A stretch of 64,000 nt of DNA from an uncultured Gammaproteobacteria bacterium (GTDB lineage: Bacteria; Pseudomonadota; Gammaproteobacteria; Steroidobacterales; UBA11654). Shown here piece by piece: positions 1 through 10,322 of the stretch; the first letter of the stretch is position 1, and each line of letters starts with the position of its first letter. The translations under genes were made by a program, and so were the position numbers. The notes under the pieces were generated by a model, which was not told the DNA's origin, made no database searches, and was given only the letters and a program-made list of their open reading frames with translations. The stretch spans positions 1 through 64,000 of the forward strand of contig CACDKD010000002.1 in the NCBI GenBank assembly GCA_902553145.1. Reading direction: 5' to 3'.

Positions 1-51
1 GGTCAGATTTTACTGAACCTGCTGCTAATTTGTCACTTGGGGGCAAGATAG
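1..51 (+). CDS. Partial leucine-rich leader peptide (3' end)
   Basis: Reading from base 1 gives 16 codons ending at TAG 49-51; the start lies left of the window. Five of seven consecutive codons at 10-30 are Leu (TTA CTG AAC CTG CTG CTA ATT), followed by Ile. A short Leu-rich frame just before an intrinsic terminator and a leucine biosynthesis operon is the signature of a leader peptide for transcription attenuation, as in enterobacterial leuL. The alternative, the tail of an unrelated gene, cannot be excluded because the start is not in the window. Frame 3 is also open across this stretch, but it reads through the terminator and resembles nothing I know. Confidence 0.6.
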   Translation, partial: GQILLNLLLICHLGAR

Positions 52-107
52 AGTTTTTTTACTATAAAACGATTTCTAAGGCCCCGCAGAATAGCGGGGT
101 TTTTTTT
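39..107 (+). promoter_or_regulatory. Attenuator of the ilv/leu operon (terminator plus candidate antiterminator)
   Basis: The terminator is CCCCGC 82-87 paired with GCGGGG 94-99, loop AGAATA, followed by eight T at 100-107. Upstream, GGGGC 40-44, within the last leader codons, can pair with GCCCC 81-85 and so remove the 5' arm of the terminator. A ribosome stalled on the Leu codons would leave 40-44 free and allow read-through. A ribosome at the stop codon (49-51) would cover it and allow termination. The hairpin and T-run are directly visible; the mechanism is inferred from known amino-acid attenuators. Confidence 0.7.
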
Positions 108-138
108 ATAAATCTTAATTATATAGGGAGCACAACCA

Positions 139-1155
139 ATGCAAATATTTTATGACAGTGATGCTGATCAGAATATTGTTAAAGGGATGAACATAGTAAT
201 CGTTGGGTATGGATCGCAAGGACATGCTCACGCAAACAATCTGAAAGATTCTGGCGCTAATGTGACTGTTGCCCTTCGAAAGGAGTCTGAGTCTTGGGCA
301 AAAGCTGAGTCTGCTGGATTCATCGTTAAAGAAGTTGATGATGCAGTGCCTGAAGCAGATCTTGTGATGATGCTAATTCCTGATGAGAAACAGGCTGTAA
401 TGTATGAAAATCATCTTAAAGGTAATATCAAAGATGGAGCTGTTTTGGCCTTTGCTCACGGGTTTAATATCCATTTTGAAATGATTGTTCCAAGAGAAGA
501 TCTTGATGTAATAATGATCGCTCCAAAGGGACCGGGACATACTGTCCGTTCTCAATTTGAATCAGGCGCAGGAGTGCCTTGCTTACTCGCAATTCATAAA
601 AATGTTTCTGGTAAAGCAAAAGACATTGGTCTTTCGTATGCATCTTTAATAGGCTCAGGTCGAGCAGGAATTATAGAGACAAACTTTAAAGACGAGACTG
701 AAACAGATCTTTTTGGAGAACAAGCAGTGCTTTGTGGCGGGTTGACCTCTCTAATTCAAACAGGCTATGAGGTCTTGGTAGAAAATGGCTATCCACCTGA
801 AATGGCTTATTTTGAATGCCTACACGAGGTAAAACTCATCGTTGACCTCATTTATGAAGGAGGCCTTCAAAATATGAGGTACAGCATTTCCAATACTGCA
901 GAGTATGGGGATTATGTAACAGGTCCAAAAATTGTGAATCAAAGCACAAAAGAAACAATGCAGAAAATTCTAAGCGAGATACAGTCCGGAGAATTTGCCA
1001 AAGACTTCATGGATGACTGTAACTCTGGTGGTGACAAAATGAGTGAATACAGAAGAAATTCATCCGAACACTCTATAGAGGCAGTGGGAGAAAACCTTCG
1101 TTCAATGATGCCATGGATTTCTGCTAATAAAATTGTCGACAAAGCTAAAAATTAA
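139..1155 (+). CDS. ilvC: Ketol-acid reductoisomerase
   Basis: Converts 2-acetolactate (or 2-aceto-2-hydroxybutyrate) to the dihydroxy acid with NADPH and Mg2+, the second common step of branched-chain amino acid synthesis. The 338-residue length is that of the short class I enzyme. A Rossmann motif [13 protein letters not shown] lies at residues 23-35, K130 in APKGPG, and metal ligands D190 and E194 in the DLFGEQ segment. AGGGAG at 125-130 sits 8 nt before ATG 139. It is the first gene after the leader attenuator, and leuA follows after 2 nt, so the branched-chain genes form one transcript. No ilvB, ilvN or ilvD is in the window; they may lie to the left. Confidence 0.97.
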
Positions 1156-1157
1156 TC

Positions 1158-2693
1158 ATGAAAGAATCTAGAGAAATAATTATATTTGACACAACACTCC
1201 GTGATGGTGAGCAAGCACCTGGATGCAGTATGACTATGGGTGAAAAATTAAAGATTGCTCACGCTTTAAAAGAATTAAATGTTGATGTGATTGAAGCAGG
1301 TTTTGCTGCCGCATCTCCTGGTGATTTTGATGCTGTAAATGCAATTGCATCCGAGATTGATGGTCCAACTATATGTTCGCTTGCAAGATGCAATGAGAGC
1401 GATATAGAAAAGGCTTACGAAGCCCTGAAGGTAAATAAAAATAGAAGAGTTCATGTCTTTGTAGCTACGAGTGAAATTCATCTCAAACACAAACTAAATA
1501 TGGCAAAAGATGAGGTTCTCAAAGCTGCTTACGAAGGTGTAAAAATGGCGAAGTCATTCTGTGAAAATGTTGAGTTTTCTCCTGAGGATGCTTCCAGAAC
1601 TGATCATGGTTTTCTAACCGAAGTTGTGAATGCTGCAATTGAAGCAGGTGCGACAACAATCAATGTTCCAGATACGGTAGGATACACAATCCCCTATGAG
1701 TTTGGTGAACTATTTAAGCACTTGATTTCAAACTGCAATGATACTGAGAATGTGATCTTCAGTGTCCATTGTCACGATGACCTTGGCCTTTCTGTAGCGA
1801 ATAGCTTGGCTGCAGTTGAATCTGGAGCAAGACAAATCGAGTGCACAATTAATGGCATTGGAGAGCGAGCTGGAAATACCTCACTTGAGGAAGTATGTAT
1901 GGCAATCAGAACAAGAGAAGAGTATTTCGATTTTAAAACATCGATTGATTCAACAAAGCTATATCCCACCAGTCGATTGGTCTCTTCGATTACGGGTATG
2001 CATGTCCCAAGAAATAAAGCCATCGTTGGCGACAATGCCTTTGCACATGAAGCAGGTATTCATCAACACGGCATGCTTAGAGATTCATCTACATATGAAA
2101 TCATGAAGCCTCAGGATGTTGGTATTGCAAGATCAAACCTAGTGCTTGGAAAACATAGTGGGAGACATGCTTTTTTAGATAGGATTAATGAGCTAGGATT
2201 TGCACTAGAGAAAGATGAGATTGATCCAGCTTTTCAGGAATTCAAGAAATTAGCTGATAGAAAAAAGGAAATATTCGATACAGACATAGAAGCAATCGTT
2301 CTAAATGCGGATATTGCCAATATGAGCCGTTGGAGCCTTATGGACCTAGAGACAACTTCAGGCTCATCATGGGGATCTACAGCATCACTGAAATTGAAAG
2401 ATTCTGGAGAAGAGATAATCGAGAGGGACAATAATAGCAATCCTGCCAGTGGACCAATTGAAGCTGTTTTCAATATCATAAGTGATATCACAGGATATAA
2501 ACTTGAATTGACAAATTTTGAGATTCACAGTGTCAGTGTTGGAGACGACGCACAGGGAGAAGTAACTGTCACAGTAAGCTATAACGGACAAAATTATAGA
2601 GGGCATGGCATTAGTACTGATATTATCGAATCAGGTGCTTTGGCTTATCTTGAAGTCATAAACAGAATTGAAAGAAATCAAGCAAAACATTAG
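1158..2693 (+). CDS. leuA: 2-isopropylmalate synthase
   Basis: Condenses acetyl-CoA with 2-oxoisovalerate, the committed step of leucine synthesis. The N-terminal catalytic TIM barrel starts with IFDTTLRDGEQAPGCSM (residues 8-24), which holds the metal-binding Asp and catalytic Arg. HCHDD near residue 205 and NGIGERAGN near residue 230 are conserved metal and active-site motifs. The C-terminal part (from about residue 390) is the regulatory domain that binds leucine for feedback inhibition. At 511 residues it matches the long bacterial LeuA type. It lies 2 nt after ilvC and 8 nt before ilvE, so it is likely controlled both by the upstream attenuator and by allosteric feedback. Confidence 0.97.
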   Translation: MKESREIIIFDTTLRDGEQAPGCSMTMGEKLKIAHALKELNVDVIEAGFAAASPGDFDAVNAIASEIDGPTICSLARCNESDIEKAYEALKVNKNRRVHVFVATSEIHLKHKLNMAKDEVLKAAYEGVKMAKSFCENVEFSPEDASRTDHGFLTEVVNAAIEAGATTINVPDTVGYTIPYEFGELFKHLISNCNDTENVIFSVHCHDDLGLSVANSLAAVESGARQIECTINGIGERAGNTSLEEVCMAIRTREEYFDFKTSIDSTKLYPTSRLVSSITGMHVPRNKAIVGDNAFAHEAGIHQHGMLRDSSTYEIMKPQDVGIARSNLVLGKHSGRHAFLDRINELGFALEKDEIDPAFQEFKKLADRKKEIFDTDIEAIVLNADIANMSRWSLMDLETTSGSSWGSTASLKLKDSGEEIIERDNNSNPASGPIEAVFNIISDITGYKLELTNFEIHSVSVGDDAQGEVTVTVSYNGQNYRGHGISTDIIESGALAYLEVINRIERNQAKH

Positions 2694-2701
2694 GAGAGAT
2701 T

Positions 2702-3631
2702 ATGCCACTCAAGCCAACAAAGAAGATTTGGTTTAATAATGAACTTGTTTCATGGGAGTCTGCTAAAATCCATGTGCTCAGCTATGCTTTGCATTATGGT
2801 TCGGCAGTCTTTGAAGGAATAAGAGCATATTCTACAGACAATGGCTCACAAATCTTCCGATTAAATGAGCACGTAAGAAGGTTATACAATTCTGCAAAGA
2901 TTTACAGAATGAATATTTCTTACACTGAGAATGAGGTGATTGAGGCATGTAGAAAAGTAGTTTCAGTCAATGAATTACATAGCGGAGCATATATCAGGCC
3001 TATAGCATTCAGGGGATACAATGATCTCGGTCTCCACGCATCCATGGATGATGATATAGAAGTTGCTGTTGCTGCCTGGGAATGGGGTACCTACCTTGGA
3101 GCAGATGCATTAAAGAATGGAGTGGATGTTTGCATATCATCGTGGAATAGAAACGCACCCAATACAATACCTGTTATGGCAAAAGCATCTGGGAACTATC
3201 TATCTGGGACATTAGTTGCAATTGAAGCTAAAGAAAATGGATACGATGAAGGTATTTGCTTAGACTCAGATGGTTTTGTAAGTGAAGGTGCAGGCGAGAA
3301 TATTTTTATGGTAAGGAATGAAAAGCTCATCACCCCTCCTCTCAGTTCTTCCATTTTAGATGGGATAACAAGAGACTCAGTAATGAAGATTGCGGACGAT
3401 CTAAATATTGAATGCATCGAGAGAAGAATCACAAGAGAAGAACTCTATCTCGCAGATGAATTATTTTTTACTGGCACTGCAGCAGAGATTACCCCCATCA
3501 GAAGCGTAGATAGAATTCAAATTAGAGAAGGGAAAAGAGGCCCCATCACAGAAAGCATTCAAAGTGTATTCTTTGGCTTGTTTAATGGCGAATCTGACGA
3601 TAAATGGAATTGGTTGACCTCTGTTGAGTAA
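2702..3631 (+). CDS. ilvE: Branched-chain amino acid aminotransferase
   Basis: PLP enzyme that transaminates the oxo-acid precursors of Leu, Ile and Val with glutamate. It is a class IV fold-type IV aminotransferase: [18 protein letters not shown] near residues 25-43, PLP lysine in [11 protein letters not shown] near residue 160, and the cofactor-phosphate segment SEGAGENIF near residue 197. The length (309) is standard. GGAGA precedes the ATG. Its end overlaps the start of leuC by 8 nt. An ilvE inside the leu cluster lets one transcript provide the final transamination step. Confidence 0.95.
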
Positions 3632-5033
3632 CTCTGGAAAAACATTATTTGAAAAGGTCTGGAACGATCATTTGGTTCTTCAGGAGACTGAAGAGACACC
3701 AGCAATACTCTATATTGACCTTCACCTCATTCATGAAGTTACAACGCCCCAAGCATTTCAGTCCCTGAGAGATCAAGGTTTTTCTGTAAGAGATCCAAAC
3801 AAAGTTTTGGCAACAATGGATCATTCCACTCCGACTCTGCCAGTCAAAAGTTTAAGAGATCTCGATATAGTTGCTGAAAAAGGGCCTGCCGATCAAATCA
3901 GAGACATGATAAGAAATTGTGAAGAATTTGGAATTGAGCTTCATGGTTTTGATTCAGATAAAAGAGGAATAGTTCATGTGATTGGACCAGAGTTAGGTGC
4001 TACTCAACCAGGAAAAACAATTGTTTGTGGCGATAGCCATACAAGCACACACGGTGCGTTTGGTGCACTTGCATTTGGCATAGGCACAACAGAGGTTGGT
4101 CACGTCTTGGCATCACAATGTCTTCTGCAGAGAAAACCAAGGACATTAGCAGTCAATATGAATGGTGCTCTCAAATCGGGTGTATCTGCAAAAGACATCA
4201 TATTAAGAATCATTCAAAAGCTTGGAGTTGATGGTGGCGTTGGGCATGTCATTGAGTACAGAGGGTCAACAGCGAGCATTCTTTCACTGGAAGAGAGAAT
4301 GACCATATGCAACATGAGCATTGAAGCAGGTGCAAGAGCTGGAATGTTTGCACCTGATGACAAAACTTTTAATTACTTAATTGATAAACCAATGTCACCT
4401 AAAGGATTAGCTTGGGATCAGGCAGTTGAAAAATGGTCAACATTGGTAAGCGATGACAATTGTGAATTCGATAAGGAAATAGATATTGATGTTGATCATT
4501 TATCTCCAATGATTACATATGGAACCAATCCTGGAATGGCTATTCAGATTGATGACATTGTCCCAGAATCAAATTCCGATCTTGGTTATAAAAAATCACT
4601 GAACTACATGCAGATTGAAGCTGGCAGACCTCTCCTTGGAAAAGAAATCGATGTTGTTTTTATAGGGAGCTGTACGAATTCAAGAATATCTGATTTAGAA
4701 GATGCAGCCGAGATACTTCAAGGTCAAAAAGTGGCAAATGGTATAAGGGCATTGATTGTGCCAGGATCTCAAGCAGTTAAGAAAGAAGCAGAAAGCCTTG
4801 GACTTGATAAAATTTTCGAATCTGCAGGCGCTGAATGGCGAGAATCTGGGTGTTCAATGTGTTTAGGAATGAATGGGGACACTGTAGGAAATGGACAACT
4901 TGCTGTCAGCACCAGCAATCGAAACTTTGAGGGCAGACAAGGAAAAGGAGCAAGGACGATCTTGGCAAGTCCTAAAACTGCTGCTGCATCTGCAATTGCT
5001 GGCTCTGTTGAGGATCCTAGAAAATATAGTTAA
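3624..5033 (+). CDS. leuC: 3-isopropylmalate dehydratase large subunit
   Basis: Aconitase-family subunit that, with LeuD, isomerises 2- to 3-isopropylmalate using a [4Fe-4S] cluster. Family motifs seen: [20 protein letters not shown] near residue 135, the cluster cysteine in [12 protein letters not shown] near residue 350, and the cysteine pair in [10 protein letters not shown] near residue 412. The start is TTG 3624, overlapping the ilvE stop. CTG 3621 is the only other near option because an in-frame stop lies at 3615. No strong Shine-Dalgarno precedes it, so translational coupling to ilvE is likely. The length (469) is typical. Confidence 0.96.
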
Positions 5034-5037
5034 TTCC

Positions 5038-5610
5038 ATGGAAAAGATTATTCAATTTAGCTCAAAAACAGTTGTCTTGGCAGTCAATGACATTGATACA
5101 GATCAAATTATACCTGCAAGGTATTTAACTGTGACAACGAAAGATGGACTCGGTGAAGGTTTATTTGCAGATTGGAGGTTCGATGAGTCTGGAGAAAAAG
5201 TAGAAGAATTTCCATTAAATCAGGAAAAGTCATCAGGATGCTCTATATTGGTTGCTGGTAGTAATTTTGGTTGTGGATCATCACGTGAACATGCCCCATG
5301 GGCACTCGTTGATTATGGATTCAAAGCAATTTTGAGCACATCATTTGCAGATATCTTTAAAAACAATGCGTTAAAAAATGGTCTGCTTCCATTATCAATA
5401 TCTAAAGAGTTTCATCGAATGCTCATTGAGAATGAAGGGACTGAGATTACTATTAGCCTCGAAAAAATGACAATTGAAAGCTCTAATGGAATGACCGAGA
5501 CATTCGATTTAGAGCCTTTTTCAAGATATTGCTTAATGAACGGAGTTGATCAGCTTGGATTCATAATGAAACACGAAGATCAAATCAATGCATTTGAAAA
5601 CAAAGGATAA
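5038..5610 (+). CDS. leuD: 3-isopropylmalate dehydratase small subunit
   Basis: Small swivel-domain subunit of isopropylmalate isomerase, partner of LeuC. The ATG at 5038 is 4 nt after the leuC stop and gives 190 residues, the normal size; the frame stays open further upstream but only as overlap with leuC. Characteristic motifs are NDIDTDQIIPARYL near residue 16 and GSNFGCGSSREHAPWAL near residue 72, where the substrate-contacting SSREH loop is found. It is followed after 3 nt by leuB. Confidence 0.96.
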   Translation: MEKIIQFSSKTVVLAVNDIDTDQIIPARYLTVTTKDGLGEGLFADWRFDESGEKVEEFPLNQEKSSGCSILVAGSNFGCGSSREHAPWALVDYGFKAILSTSFADIFKNNALKNGLLPLSISKEFHRMLIENEGTEITISLEKMTIESSNGMTETFDLEPFSRYCLMNGVDQLGFIMKHEDQINAFENKG

Positions 5611-5613
5611 TAA

Positions 5614-6669
5614 ATGAAAGCAGAAATAACTGTATTGTCGGGTGACGGGATTGGTCCTGAAATCACAGAGCATGCATTGCATATTCTCACTGCAATTGAA
5701 AAAAAATATGGCCATGAGTTTATTTTGCACGATGCTCTGTTTGGGGGTATTGCCATCGACAAAACTGGCGATCCTTATCCACAGGAAACAAGGGATCTTT
5801 GCAAAACATCTGATGCCGTTCTTTTAGGTGCTGTTGGAGGACCAAAATGGAGCGATCCCAAGGCAAAGACGAGACCTGAGAAAGGCTTGTTAGATATGAG
5901 ATCAGACCTCGGTGTTTATGCAAACCTAAGGCAAATAAAGACTTATCCTCAGTTAATTGATAATTCACCGATTGAAAACTCTAGGTTGAAAGATATTGAT
6001 ATCTTATTTGTCCGTGAGTTGATCGGCGGCATATATTTTGGCGAAAAAGAAAAGTCAGAAGATTATGCAAAAGATGTATGCGAATATTCAGCGACTGAGA
6101 TAGAGCGTATCGTTAAAGTTGCTGCAGATTTATCGAAGAAAAGAAAAAATAAGCTGACGTCCGTTGATAAAGCGAACGTGATGGCAACTTCACAACTTTG
6201 GAGATCAGTGACAACCACTGTGATTGAAAATGAATATCCGGATTTAGAAATTGAACACCTTTTAGTCGATGCTGCAACCATGCATCTGCTCTCTCGCCCA
6301 GCAGACTTTGATGTAGTTGTTGCTGAGAATCTTTTTGGAGACATCTTAACGGATGAGGCATCCATGCTGACGGGATCGATAGGCATGATCCCTTCCGCTT
6401 CTCTCGGCGATAATAATTTCGGCGTGTATGAACCTATTCATGGTTCTGCACCAGATATTCAGGGCAAAGGCCTTGCAAATCCATGCGGCATGATTCTTTC
6501 AGTTGCTATGATGCTTGAGCACTCACTGAATCTGATTGACGAAGCAAATGAAATTGAGAATGCAGTTCAAACAGCACTCAATCAAGGAATCTTTACCGCC
6601 GATCTTTCATCTCATGACCATGTTTCAACGGATGAGATGGGAGAAGCCATACTCTCAAATATAAATTAA
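5614..6669 (+). CDS. leuB: 3-isopropylmalate dehydrogenase
   Basis: Oxidises and decarboxylates 3-isopropylmalate to 2-oxoisocaproate with NAD+. The start motif LSGDGIGPEI (residues 8-17) and PKWSDP near residue 77 fit LeuB. RELIGGIYFG near residue 136 is the LeuB signature of the isocitrate/isopropylmalate dehydrogenase family. The metal-binding D and NLFGDILTDE motif lies near residue 240, and the NAD adenine-binding GSAPDIQGKGLANP loop near residue 280. It is 351 residues long and is the last gene of the ilv-leu operon. A 92-nt gap with a new promoter follows; I see no hairpin terminator there. Confidence 0.97.
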   Translation: MKAEITVLSGDGIGPEITEHALHILTAIEKKYGHEFILHDALFGGIAIDKTGDPYPQETRDLCKTSDAVLLGAVGGPKWSDPKAKTRPEKGLLDMRSDLGVYANLRQIKTYPQLIDNSPIENSRLKDIDILFVRELIGGIYFGEKEKSEDYAKDVCEYSATEIERIVKVAADLSKKRKNKLTSVDKANVMATSQLWRSVTTTVIENEYPDLEIEHLLVDAATMHLLSRPADFDVVVAENLFGDILTDEASMLTGSIGMIPSASLGDNNFGVYEPIHGSAPDIQGKGLANPCGMILSVAMMLEHSLNLIDEANEIENAVQTALNQGIFTADLSSHDHVSTDEMGEAILSNIN

Positions 6670-6688
6670 CATCTGCTCGATTTAAGTG

Positions 6689-6742
6689 TTGTATTTGATA
6701 TTTCTCTCATTATAATGTCATGCTGTACTAACACATTAGCAC
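6689..6742 (+). promoter_or_regulatory. his operon promoter with TrpR-type operator
   Basis: A sigma70-type promoter is visible: TTGTAT 6689-6694, a 16-bp spacer, and a perfect TATAAT at 6711-6716, predicting a start near 6723. An imperfect palindrome at 6725-6742 (GTACTAA CACA TTAGCAC; arms match at 6 of 7 positions) sits over the predicted start. From memory, E. coli TrpR operators have the same 18-bp geometry with GTACTA and TAGTAC-like arms, and the next gene encodes a TrpR-family protein. Repression and autoregulation at this site are inferred. No His-rich leader peptide is seen. Confidence 0.6.
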
Positions 6743-6761
6743 AATAGGACAAAGTGAAAAG

Positions 6762-7070
6762 ATGAAAATAGAAAGAGTTTTGACAAAAGAAGAGGAAAAG
6801 GTTGCTGAAGAGCGATTCTACAAAGCAATAATGAGCCTGAATGATGTAGATGAATATCGTTCATTTTTTAATGATATTTTTACACCGGCTGAATTTGAAT
6901 CCATTAAAGATCGATGGAGCGTCGCTGAACTTCTTGATAAAGGTTATACGTACAGAGAAATAAAAACCATGACAGGTGTGAGTCTTACAACAATTGGAAG
7001 GGTTGCAAGATTTCTTTTTGATGGAGCAAATGGTTACAAAATGGCACTAGAGAGAGTAAATAAAAAATGA
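6762..7070 (+). CDS. TrpR/YerC-family transcriptional regulator of the his operon
   Basis: A 102-residue all-helical protein of the TrpR-like YerC/YecD family. A dimerisation region is followed by a helix-turn-helix at about residues 62-86 (GYTYREIKTMTGVSLTTIGR), where TGVSLTTIGRV is the recognition helix region. It is the first gene of the his operon and overlaps hisG by an ATGA junction. Its promoter carries a TrpR-operator-like palindrome. A YerC relative in Firmicutes has been proposed as a histidine regulator (HisR), as I recall; the same role here is inferred from position. The corepressor, perhaps histidine, is not known. The Shine-Dalgarno is weak (AGGAC 6746-6750, 11 nt away). Confidence 0.8.
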   Translation: MKIERVLTKEEEKVAEERFYKAIMSLNDVDEYRSFFNDIFTPAEFESIKDRWSVAELLDKGYTYREIKTMTGVSLTTIGRVARFLFDGANGYKMALERVNKK

Positions 7071-7960
7071 ACGAACGAATTAAAATAGCCATTCAGAAAT
7101 CCGGTAGATTAACAGAACACAGCACTACCCTGCTCCAAAAATGTGGCCTTATCATCAGTCATACCAAAGACCAATTGATAGGATATGGAGAAAACATGCC
7201 TTTCGATATCATGTTTGTAAGGGACGACGATATTCCAGGATTGATTCAAGAAAATCTTTGTGAAATAGGGATTGTTGGTGCGAATGTCGCTATTGAAAAA
7301 CAGCTTTCATACGAGTCAAGTCAATTGCCTTCTCAATTTGTTCTTGAATCATCGCTTGATTTTGGTCACTGCAAGCTCTCCTTTGCATACCCAGAGACAT
7401 CGAGCATTCGATCGGTCAATGATCTTGAAGGCAAAACAATAGCAACCAGCTATCCATTTACAGTAAAAAACTACTTCGCTGAGAATCAGATTAATGCAAG
7501 AGTCACAGAATTTTCTGGTGCTGTAGAGTTGGCGCCAAGTTTGGGTAAAGCCGAAGCAATTTGCGATCTCGTTTCATCAGGAAACACTATAAAGGCGCAT
7601 AATTTAGTGCTTGGAGAAACAATATTAGAAAGCGTTGCAACTGTTCTTAAATCCAATTCAAATCAGTCAGCTTTTAAACAAATGTGGATCGATAAAATCA
7701 TTGAAAGAATCAATGGTGTTCTCCAAGTAAATGAAAGCAAATACATCATGATGCATGCTCCAAAAGATGCAATTAATGAGATCACTACCCTTCTGCCTGG
7801 AACAGAGTCACCAACGGTGATTCCATTGGATGGCATCAGTGATACAGTTGCAGTTCATGTTGTTTGTAAAGAGACGGTATTTTGGGAGACTTTAGAGGAG
7901 CTCAAAGAAGTGGGCGCGTCATCCATATTAGTGGTGCCTGTTGAGAAAATGTTGATGTAG
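7067..7960 (+). CDS. hisG: ATP phosphoribosyltransferase (long form)
   Basis: First step of histidine synthesis: ATP plus PRPP gives N1-phosphoribosyl-ATP. At 297 residues it is the long hexameric form with the C-terminal regulatory ACT-like domain (from about residue 220), which binds histidine, so no HisZ is needed. Seen are KIAIQKSGRL near residue 5, IGIVGANVAIE near residue 66, and the PRPP-binding stretch with EFSGAVELAPSLG near residue 145. The ATG overlaps the stop of the TrpR-like gene. hisD follows after 5 nt. Confidence 0.96.
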   Translation: MNERIKIAIQKSGRLTEHSTTLLQKCGLIISHTKDQLIGYGENMPFDIMFVRDDDIPGLIQENLCEIGIVGANVAIEKQLSYESSQLPSQFVLESSLDFGHCKLSFAYPETSSIRSVNDLEGKTIATSYPFTVKNYFAENQINARVTEFSGAVELAPSLGKAEAICDLVSSGNTIKAHNLVLGETILESVATVLKSNSNQSAFKQMWIDKIIERINGVLQVNESKYIMMHAPKDAINEITTLLPGTESPTVIPLDGISDTVAVHVVCKETVFWETLEELKEVGASSILVVPVEKMLM

Positions 7961-7965
7961 TAATT

Positions 7966-9267
7966 ATGAAACTTGAGATCATAAAATGGAAAGAACTGAC
8001 TGAAGATGAAAAAATAGCATCTCTTAAGAGGCCTGTTATTGAGAGCATAGAGGAACAAGAGTCAGTTATCACTGAGATATTCAATGAGGTCAAATCAAAT
8101 GGCGACCAAGCCATTAAGAGATATACAAAAATGTATGACGGTGTAGAGATTGATAATCTATTGATGAGCGACAAAGAAATTACTTCTGCATTCGATAGGG
8201 TGCCAAATACTTTGATTCAGTCCATCGAAAATGCAATTGAAAATGTCAAAACATTTCATGAAAAAAACTTCCAAAGCGATACAAATAAGGTTGAAGTAAG
8301 AACCGGAGTAAATTGTCAGATAATAAAAAGACCCATTGAAAATGTAGGTCTTTATATACCTGCAGGAAATAATCCACTTCCTTCGACTGCAATAATGTTG
8401 GGTGTACCCTCCTCGCTTGCCATGAATAAGGAATCCATTATCGTTTCTCCGCCCAATGACTCAGGCGTTGTGAATGATTCAATTGTTGTTGCAGCAAAAT
8501 TAAGCGGTATAGGAAGGATTTGTAAAGTGGGAGGAGCTCAATCAATCGCTGCTCTAGCATACGGCACCGAATCAATTCCTCAGGTGGATAAAATATTTGG
8601 ACCGGGAAATAGTTGGGTTACCAAAGCCAAACAAATGATCTCTTTATTAAACCTCCCTGTTTCAATCGATATGCCAGCTGGACCAACTGAAGTTCTGATT
8701 ATTTCCGATGGGAATACCAATCCTGAATTCATTGCTTATGATTTACTATCACAGGCTGAACACGGCGTAGATTCTCAAGTTATACTTATTTCTCAGAATG
8801 ATTCATTTCTCAAAAAAGTTGCAATCGAAATAGATAAAGCAATATCAAAAATCAGAACCCAAGAGATTGCTAAGATTTCAATGAAAAATTCCAAATTAAT
8901 TTTTGTTGATGACATTCAGGAAGCAATTAATATCTCAAATTATTATGCGCCAGAGCACTTGATCATTAACTGCAAGAATGCAGAAAAACTAGTACAAAAA
9001 ATATCATCAGCAGGTTCAGTATTTCTTGGCGAATGGAGCCCAGAATCTGCAGGTGATTACTGCAGTGGAACAAATCATGTTTTACCTACGGCAGGCTTTG
9101 CAAGATCATACAGTGGTTTGTCTGTAGATAGTTTTTGCAAATCAATATCTGTTCAAAGTTTGACCAAGAAAGGATTAGAGATAATTGGCGATGATATTAT
9201 TAATCTTGCAATGGCAGAAGGGCTAGAGGCACATGCAAAAGCAGTTGAAGTAAGGATTAAGAAATGA
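7966..9267 (+). CDS. hisD: Histidinol dehydrogenase
   Basis: Zn-dependent enzyme for the last two oxidations, L-histidinol to L-histidine with two NAD+. The 433-residue protein carries [19 protein letters not shown] near residue 125, the family signature around [17 protein letters not shown] near residue 208, [11 protein letters not shown] near residue 232, the zinc-ligand segment SQAEHG near residue 262 and YAPEHL near residue 328. The C-terminal [13 protein letters not shown] segment is the usual substrate/zinc region. It overlaps hisC by 4 nt. Confidence 0.97.
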
Positions 9268-10322
9268 AAATAAAAGACTTAGTTCGACCAGAGGTTTTGA
9301 ATCTAAAGCCATATGTGCCAGCTACTAAGGTTTTGGATAAGGTCAGGTTGAATGCTAATGAGAGCCCGTATTCAGTAACTAAATCTGCATCCAAAGATGC
9401 CTTGAACTTGTATCCAGATGCTAGGCCCGATCAGATAAGAGAGAAGGTTGCAAGTTACCTAAACTTATCGAGTGAAAATATCGTTGTAACCAGGGGAAGT
9501 ACAGAAGCAATCGACGTTGCCATTCGAACATTTTGCATTCCTAATCAAGATGGAATATTGGTTTTTCCACCGACATTTGAAATGTATAAATTCTATGCTG
9601 AGGTTCAAGGCATTGAAATGCACACCATCCTTTTGGATGATGAAAACGGGTACACACTAGATATGAGTGCGATAAAGGCATTCAACTCTAAAAATGCGAA
9701 ACTAACATTTATTTGCTCCCCTTCAAATCCACTTGGTCATAAGTTCAGCGATGACTCTATTTATCAAGTTTGTGAGCATTTTAGAGACTCAGGCCTCGTT
9801 ATACTTGACGGTGCATATGTCGAGTTTGATGACGATGAGATTTATAAAAGGATTTTGTCTAAGTTTGATAATGTCATTATTTTAAGAACCTTATCAAAGG
9901 CTTTTGGTTTGGCAGGAGTCAGATGCGGAGTTTTGATTTCTAGTTCTGAAATTTGTCAGTTCATTGAAAGGGTTATACCTCCCTACTCATTCAGCACACC
10001 AGCAGTGAATGCTGTTTTAGAGAGTCTTTCTGATAAGGGCATTGAGGAATCAAAAAGAAACATAAAGACCATCATCCAAGACAGAGAATGGCTAATGAAA
10101 GAGTTGGAGTCATTGGATGAAGTCATAAAAGTTTTTCCGTCATATACAAACTTTATATTGGTGAAGGTTAAAGACGCCAAATCATTTTGTAAAAAATCAA
10201 AAGATATAGGTTTTTTATTGAGAGACGTAGGTTATCAACCTTTGCTTGAAAACTGTGTGAGAATCACGGTTGGCACCACCAAGCAAAATCAAAAACTAAT
10301 CAAAGGGATAAAAGATGAGTGA
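9264..10322 (+). CDS. hisC: Histidinol-phosphate aminotransferase
   Basis: Class II PLP aminotransferase converting imidazole acetol-phosphate to histidinol-phosphate. Motifs are RLNANESPY near residue 28, the PLP-ring segment VTRGSTEAIDVAIRTF near residue 75, SPSNPLGH near residue 153, and the Schiff-base lysine in RTLSKAFGLAGVRCG near residue 212. Length 352 is typical. It overlaps hisD by 4 nt and hisB by 8 nt. A second hisC, found beside aroA in many gammaproteobacteria, is not present in this window. Confidence 0.95.
   Translation: MKIKDLVRPEVLNLKPYVPATKVLDKVRLNANESPYSVTKSASKDALNLYPDARPDQIREKVASYLNLSSENIVVTRGSTEAIDVAIRTFCIPNQDGILVFPPTFEMYKFYAEVQGIEMHTILLDDENGYTLDMSAIKAFNSKNAKLTFICSPSNPLGHKFSDDSIYQVCEHFRDSGLVILDGAYVEFDDDEIYKRILSKFDNVIILRTLSKAFGLAGVRCGVLISSSEICQFIERVIPPYSFSTPAVNAVLESLSDKGIEESKRNIKTIIQDREWLMKELESLDEVIKVFPSYTNFILVKVKDAKSFCKKSKDIGFLLRDVGYQPLLENCVRITVGTTKQNQKLIKGIKDE

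Follow-up and report, generated by a model that had tools for sequence, protein, structure and literature searches.

A probable leucine attenuator ahead of ilvC in an uncultured gammaproteobacterium, with counterparts across its order

Background and summary

The first 107 bases of the window, by which is meant the whole analysed stretch of 64,000 nucleotides, appear to hold a ribosome-mediated transcription attenuator. It would sense charged tRNA-Leu and stand before a six-gene operon, ilvC-leuA-ilvE-leuCDB. We put the probability of this reading at about 0.9. The mechanism would be a known one in a variant form, in which ilvC comes first, the leader probably has a leaderless start, and there is no conserved protector hairpin.

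The proposed mechanism is as follows. RNA polymerase would start on the AUG of a leader of about 32 codons, or a few bases away from it, and a ribosome would load on that RNA 5' end and trail the polymerase. When charged tRNA-Leu is scarce, the ribosome would wait at the Leu codons (10-27), which leaves GGGGC (40-44) free. Once GCCCC (81-85) has emerged, the free segment would pair with it, the terminator would be blocked, and ilvC-leuA-ilvE-leuCDB would be transcribed. When leucine is plentiful, the ribosome would reach the stop (49-51) and cover 40-44. Positions 82-99 would then fold as a terminator, and transcription would end at the U tract.

Read directly from sequence are the leader, its invariant Leu codons, the mutually exclusive pairings, the promoter and start spacing in relatives, and the operon order. 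From these we infer ribosome stalling, the leaderless start and the regulation itself. In this way a small-genome, probably marine bacterium would get leucine control without a regulator protein.

Leader and operon in the window

The elements of the leader region are listed here. Negative leader positions count codons back from GGG, the glycine codon in the antiterminator arm.

1..51, plus strand: 3' part of the leader open reading frame, translating to GQILLNLLLICHLGAR and then a stop (window sequence; truncated by the contig edge, with full homologues in 10 relatives)
10..27, plus strand: control codons TTA CTG AAC CTG CTG CTA, five of them Leu (Leu at -9, -7 and -6 invariant in 11/11)
40..44, plus strand: antiterminator 5' arm GGGGC, within the Gly-Ala codons of the leader (complementary to 81-85; covariation at 44/81; pre-terminator fold)
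81..85, plus strand: antiterminator 3' arm GCCCC (82-85 double as part of the terminator 5' arm)
82..99, plus strand: terminator hairpin CCCCGC-AGAATA-GCGGGG (sequence, folding)
100..107, plus strand: terminator U tract, eight T (sequence)
125..130, plus strand: Shine-Dalgarno-like AGGGAG of ilvC (sequence)

An earlier, sequence-only reading had proposed leucine-specific ribosome-mediated attenuation ahead of the six genes, a proposal that the leaders, codons and folds of relatives support well. Its coordinates are all correct on re-reading the sequence. The leader tail is as Leu-rich as claimed, with Leu in five of the seven codons at 10-30 (TTA CTG AAC CTG CTG CTA ATT), and ends in a TAG stop at 49-51. 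The GC terminator with its eight T is present at 82-107. Leader, terminator and pairing go beyond chance because they are kept in all 10 other genomes of the family, which comprises 11 genomes in the collection including the window's own, with ilvC in all. Loss of the Leu codons or of the 40-44/81-85 pairing in relatives would have counted against the proposal; both are retained in 11/11 family genomes.

Base 1 of the window is base 1 of contig C2, in an assembly of 1.44 Mb that is 85% complete. This means that the start codon and promoter of the leader lie outside the window. Judged by the spacing in the nearest relative, G003, some 203 nt would be absent between contigs C7 and C2.

The genes behind the attenuator are the following.

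139..1155, plus strand: ilvC, ketol-acid reductoisomerase (NF004017 3.8e-164, TIGR00465; ATG at 139)
1158..2693, plus strand: leuA, 2-isopropylmalate synthase (NF002086 4.7e-226, TIGR00973)
2702..3631, plus strand: ilvE, branched-chain aminotransferase (TIGR01122 4.6e-130)
3624..5033, plus strand: leuC, isopropylmalate dehydratase large subunit (TIGR00170 4e-187; start codon uncertain)
5041..5610, plus strand: leuD, isopropylmalate dehydratase small subunit (TIGR00171 4.5e-61)
5614..6669, plus strand: leuB, 3-isopropylmalate dehydrogenase (TIGR00169 1.1e-134)

These six genes, identified by NCBIfam, are tightly packed, and the plus strand of 1-7200 shows no terminator-like site besides 82-107. 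Their order is identical in 10/10 other family genomes, where leuC and leuD of L101 and ilvE of L105 were each matched in two pieces.

It had also been claimed that leucine sets the whole branched-chain set. This stands for ilvC and ilvE, which are in the operon and serve all three amino acids, and which would follow leucine. It is overstated for the set as a whole, since other members of it lie elsewhere in the window's own genome: contig C6 carries ilvI (acetolactate synthase) and, next to it in divergent orientation, ilvH, and C3 carries ilvD. Upstream of ilvI in that genome, no attenuator-like terminator was seen by eye.

The leader in the family

The leader start and promoter, cut off in the window by the contig edge, are found in 10/10 relatives. 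Each has TTGACA, a 17-nt spacer, a -10 box GANNA[T/A], 6-8 nt and an ATG; at L096 an 18-nt spacer can also be drawn, which shifts the -10 box by one base. The Leu-rich leader that follows is 27-34 codons long, and 27-31 nt separate it from the terminator.

The gene 5' of the leader is divergent in all 10 relatives, so frame 1-51 is not the C-terminus of an upstream gene, as the sequence-only reading had allowed it might be. Its product is assigned to DUF3450 by Pfam at L096 and L105. The counterpart in the window's own genome is contained in bases 1-883 of contig C7, at 91% identity to the nearest relative.

The proposed switch

Folding of 1-138 gives -35.6 kcal/mol, with a z of -2.5 against 200 shuffles. 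To place ribosomes, the 3' edge was assumed to lie 12 nt past the first base of the A-site codon. With a ribosome at Leu -6 and a transcript that ends before the terminator 3' arm, GGGG and CCCC are paired in 11/11 predicted folds, at -11.3 to -18.1 kcal/mol. With the ribosome at the stop, the CCCC arm is unpaired in all 11 pre-terminator folds. Once the whole terminator is included, 10/11 folds with a ribosome at Leu -6 have it as their minimum, and G009 alone has the antiterminator. Given that the terminator wins at full-length equilibrium, readthrough must be kinetic, and rest on folding order.

The antiterminator arm of the family leaders reads GGGG[C/U]. One arm pair covaries: pair 44/81 is C-G in 8 leaders and U-A in 3, with zero mismatches. 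The U-A form is found in G002 and G004, and again in G006, the close relative of which, G009, is C-G. A C-to-U change at 44 turns a peptide Ala into Val. The remaining four pairs of the core helix are invariant over the 11 leaders, hence uninformative, and a sixth pair (columns 45/82) is unpaired in 7/11.

A protector hairpin over the Leu codons is predicted in the window's own fold. As a conserved part it was rejected, with relatives no better than shuffles. At p ≤ 0.05, a 1:2 pause/protector hairpin beat shuffles in 0/10 family loci and in 7/60 loci order-wide (Fisher 0.0097). Because the test confined its search for the arm to the 33 nt at the leader's 3' end, overlap of the arm with a ribosome at the stop is there partly by construction and carries no weight here. 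Such a hairpin, of the trp, his and leu type, is not known to be required of every ribosome-mediated attenuator.

Which amino acid is read

Over the 11 family leaders, Leu is invariant at -6, -7 and -9, with synonymous changes (at -9, CTG in 5, CTA in 4 and TTA in 2). Ile or Val is invariant at no position. The earlier claim that leucine alone is sensed has support in the three invariant Leu positions, but the window leader also has Ile codons at -4 and -11, so a minor isoleucine input is possible.

A leader that senses leucine and isoleucine jointly, multivalent like that of E. coli ilvGMEDA, is unlikely. Each of the 11 family leaders does have Ile codons close to the Leu core, at -4 in 7/11 for example. 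However, no Ile position is invariant, against three for Leu, and given the assumed 12-nt footprint a ribosome waiting at -4 would hardly free the arm. In addition, leaders before ilvC-leuA are dominated by Leu (mean Leu share 0.72 of L+I+V), and it is before ilvC-ilvB that clearly multivalent leaders are found.

The choice of Leu codons is also biased. Positions -12 to -4 of the 11 leaders hold 60 Leu codons. CTG and CTA account for 43 of these, as against a fraction of 0.233 among 1628 Leu codons in 44 open reading frames of the window. With one leader per lineage for four lineages the figure is 14/23 (p = 1.3e-4, hand count). The tRNA-Leu anticodons in G000 and G001 are TAG, CAA, TAA and GAG, with 31/31 and 31/32 tRNA places read. 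No CAG anticodon is among the tRNA genes found in these two genomes, both incomplete, so CUA and CUG are probably read by a single tRNA.

This bias agrees with selective-charging theory for the E. coli leu attenuator, in which CUA is best, CUG a reasonable alternative, and UUA and UUG worse (PMC1183508). It could alternatively serve RNA pairing.

Survey of the order

Covariance model R1, run on 296 genomes of the order, gave 13 matches: the 11 family genomes, G015 and G285. G015, from another family, has a genuine ilvC leader. The match in G285 is a similar terminator between other genes, and was dropped. The model missed nearly all leaders found order-wide, which a search based on IlvC recovered.

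The IlvC query came from the sister genus (G010); 117 order genomes were searched and 112 had a match. From these, 100 ilvC upstream stretches were taken, leaving out others that include contig-edge matches and second IlvC copies at about 48%. Clade A consists of 72 loci from 71 genomes (G060 gives L169 and L195), namely 62 at 60-67% identity to G010 IlvC and the 10 family loci L096-L105. Clade B consists of 28 loci at 48-54% identity.

A locus was scored as having a leader if a terminator, with up to 3 stem mismatches allowed, follows a frame with 5 or more L/I/V among its last 18 codons. Clade A has a terminator in 66/72 loci, and a terminator with a leader rich in branched-chain codons in 60/72. 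For clade B, a terminator-like site is seen in 3/28, and a leader in 0/28. At least 7 L/I/V in the last 18 codons is the case for 54 of the 60 leaders versus 6.5% of 153 clade B control frames.

Pairing between leader tail and terminator arm beats dinucleotide shuffles (p ≤ 0.05) in 26/60 loci, with a combined Fisher value of 2.9e-26. The loci of this survey are related to one another and do not count as independent trials. The 34/60 loci without pairing at p ≤ 0.05 include many of f7, and some are worse than average (e.g. L211, L212).

The 12/72 clade A loci with no leader by the rule are L173, L175, L179, L182, L189, L203, L205, L208, L216, L217, L218 and L223. By eye, L173 probably holds a leader that the rule missed. 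L223 is cut by a contig end, and some of the other loci look degenerate. Conversely, L166, L184 and L225 satisfy the rule with poor leaders.

Start of the leader

A strict promoter, TTGAC[A/T], 17 nt and xAxxx[T/A], is found in 44/60 loci. The first in-frame ATG or GTG comes 6-8 nt past the -10 box in 32/44 and 18-43 nt past it in 12/44, and never at 9-17 nt. By chance, a given in-frame position would hold ATG or GTG about 2 times in 64. The short distance is seen in f1 (10/10), f2 (2/2), f4 (4/4), f15 (2/2), f11 (1/1) and f7 (13/14), and the long one in f6 (9/9) and f12 (2/2).

Transcription usually starts 6-7 nt from the -10 box. That spacing would put the RNA 5' end on the AUG or no more than about two bases away from it. 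The leader thus seems to be translated leaderless, from the first bases of its RNA, with the place of the transcription start being predicted from the promoter.

The loci of f6 (L163 of G015, L170, L190, L198, L199, L204, L213, L221 and L222) have their start 18-30 nt past the -10 box. This implies a 5' UTR, and that the type of start changed within the order.

In the literature searched, most subscription papers being outside it, there was no report of a leaderless attenuation leader in gammaproteobacteria, and no earlier report of this ilvC leader. Vitreschak and colleagues reportedly surveyed proteobacterial attenuators in 2004, and the ilvC leader may already be in print.

Codons and operon content

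In 48/60 loci leuA stands behind ilvC, immediately or within about 1.3 kb. In 9/60 it is ilvB. The ilvB copy of L197 is an acetolactate synthase large subunit (TIGR00118 7.3e-210, NCBIfam), and the other copies match it over 136-555 residues, that of L215 up to its contig end. At L170 and L184 ilvE and leuC come next, with no leuA. L205, of f12, has ilvB and no leader by the rule.

The leaders differ accordingly in codons. With cut-offs picked after inspection of the data, 2 or more Ile together with 3 or more Val occur in the last 18 codons of 9/9 ilvC-ilvB leaders and 0/48 ilvC-leuA leaders, or 0/50 if L170 and L184 are included. The mean Leu share before ilvB is 0.43, versus the 0.72 before leuA (Mann-Whitney p = 5.8e-6), though the two ranges overlap, L166 and L167 having shares of 0.5 or less. 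Of all the evidence, this fit of codons to operon argues most strongly that the leader codons are functional and that the leader of the window reads leucine.

The ilvB cases belong to f12 and f16, which group together in the IlvC tree (a single clade, with a support of 0.77 over four loci), so one evolutionary change is certain.

At a further locus, L219 of G087, the leader is multivalent for Leu, Ile and Val, and after ilvC come an ilvB-like piece of 49 residues and a thrA-like gene (aspartokinase/homoserine dehydrogenase). Its leader passes the Ile and Val cut-offs too, and was counted apart from the ilvC-ilvB set. L219 comes from f11, where the other seven scored leaders belong to the leuA type, and might represent a second change.

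Could this simply be a terminator with a fortuitous reading frame, and no regulation? Intrinsic terminators are common, and the control frames above show that frames rich in branched-chain codons arise by chance. Such an arrangement is nevertheless very improbable, for the terminator sits between a conserved promoter and the first operon gene, in the same sense, in 10/10 relatives, and Leu stays invariant through synonymous changes. The order-wide presence and the match of codons to operon speak against it as well. We hold it just as improbable that the sensor is a T-box, a riboswitch or an RNA-binding protein and not a translating ribosome. Nothing specific speaks for such a sensor. Conservation falls in the leader codons and arms, and no Rfam family reached its gathering score on window 1-10000 or on 10 loci of relatives, where the only matches were sub-threshold ones to Phe_leader, Trp_leader and unrelated families.

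A separate idea is that the leader has a role in trans as well, through its terminated RNA or its peptide, as rnTrpL and peTrpL do in Sinorhizobium meliloti. A leaderless trp leader of this kind is described in PMC7298713. We think a trans role here quite unlikely, as the N-terminal half of the peptide diverges freely in the family, and there is no pointer to a target.

The attenuation reading can be extended to the order, in a form that is possible but that we would sooner doubt than accept. One orthologous attenuator would stand before ilvC across much of the order. A 70S start on the bare 5' end of the RNA would substitute for the pausing hairpin in keeping ribosome and polymerase in synchrony. 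The control codons would have been recast, as Leu alone or as Leu+Ile+Val, in keeping with whichever gene comes second in the operon; this would have happened once in f12 and f16 at the least, and perhaps a second time in the one f11 genome with an ilvB remnant.

If true, this is a natural experiment on how leader codons gain specificity. The set has the same attenuator position with two operon contents, two codon sets and two start modes, apparently leaderless or with a 5' UTR. It makes two questions testable, namely whether operon content shapes the leader codons and whether a polymerase pause hairpin is replaced by leaderless initiation.

Comparison with known systems

The leuL of E. coli and Salmonella is a short leader with Leu codons and a stop inside a switch between terminator and antiterminator, and it controls leuABCD. 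The attenuator described here is similar in its Leu codons, the stop inside the switch, the competition of terminator and antiterminator, and the leu genes that it would control. It is unlike leuL in that ilvC comes first, ilvE is included, the leader start is 6-8 nt from the -10 box, and there is no conserved protector hairpin. Searches for the Rfam family Leu_leader (RF00512) listed no match at E ≤ 1 in window 1-10000, and none at E ≤ 0.5 in 10 loci of relatives. Among the shared features are also CUA control codons, present in the Salmonella leader (PMC1183508).

Two systems are precedents for leaderless attenuation leaders. The leader peptide of Corynebacterium glutamicum ilvBNC starts one nucleotide from the transcription start, has codons for branched-chain amino acids, and comes with a terminator (PMC11857589); its ribosome binding site is missing, according to Morbach 2000 as cited there. 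It differs in being from an actinobacterium, with an Ile/Val/Leu leader and a 292-nt region with three hairpins (PMC11857589). For S. meliloti trpL, the 5' end of the RNA is the ATG of the leader frame; differences are tryptophan, an alphaproteobacterial host, and the reported trans roles (PMC7298713).

A Leu-rich leader has been proposed to control a joint ilv-leu operon in Staphylococcus aureus (PMC5794164). Unlike the leader described here, that one also contains several Ile codons in a row and has a putative ribosome binding site; the antiterminator fold is another one, and CodY is a further difference.

Further observations

The genes ilvI and ilvH usually share one operon. They are transcribed divergently in G000, G004 and G007 (L106-L108; in the window's own genome on C6 at about 4356-6068; ilvH of G000 by Pfam).

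At 6762-7070, a YerC/YecD TrpR-related gene lies directly 5' of a hisG-like gene (his genes named by eye). The position of the YerC/YecD gene behind leuB is kept in all 9 other members of the genus.

The IlvC of the window's genus (139-1155; L096-L104) nests within SAR86 IlvC, with a clade support of 0.97. SAR86 as the source, which IlvC matches alone would suggest, was not accepted, since the operon and attenuator of this genus match those of other families. The sister genus (L105) carries a different IlvC, at 52% identity, and shares the leader, the terminator and the remaining operon genes. It seems that the ilvC coding sequence was replaced in place, behind a retained attenuator.
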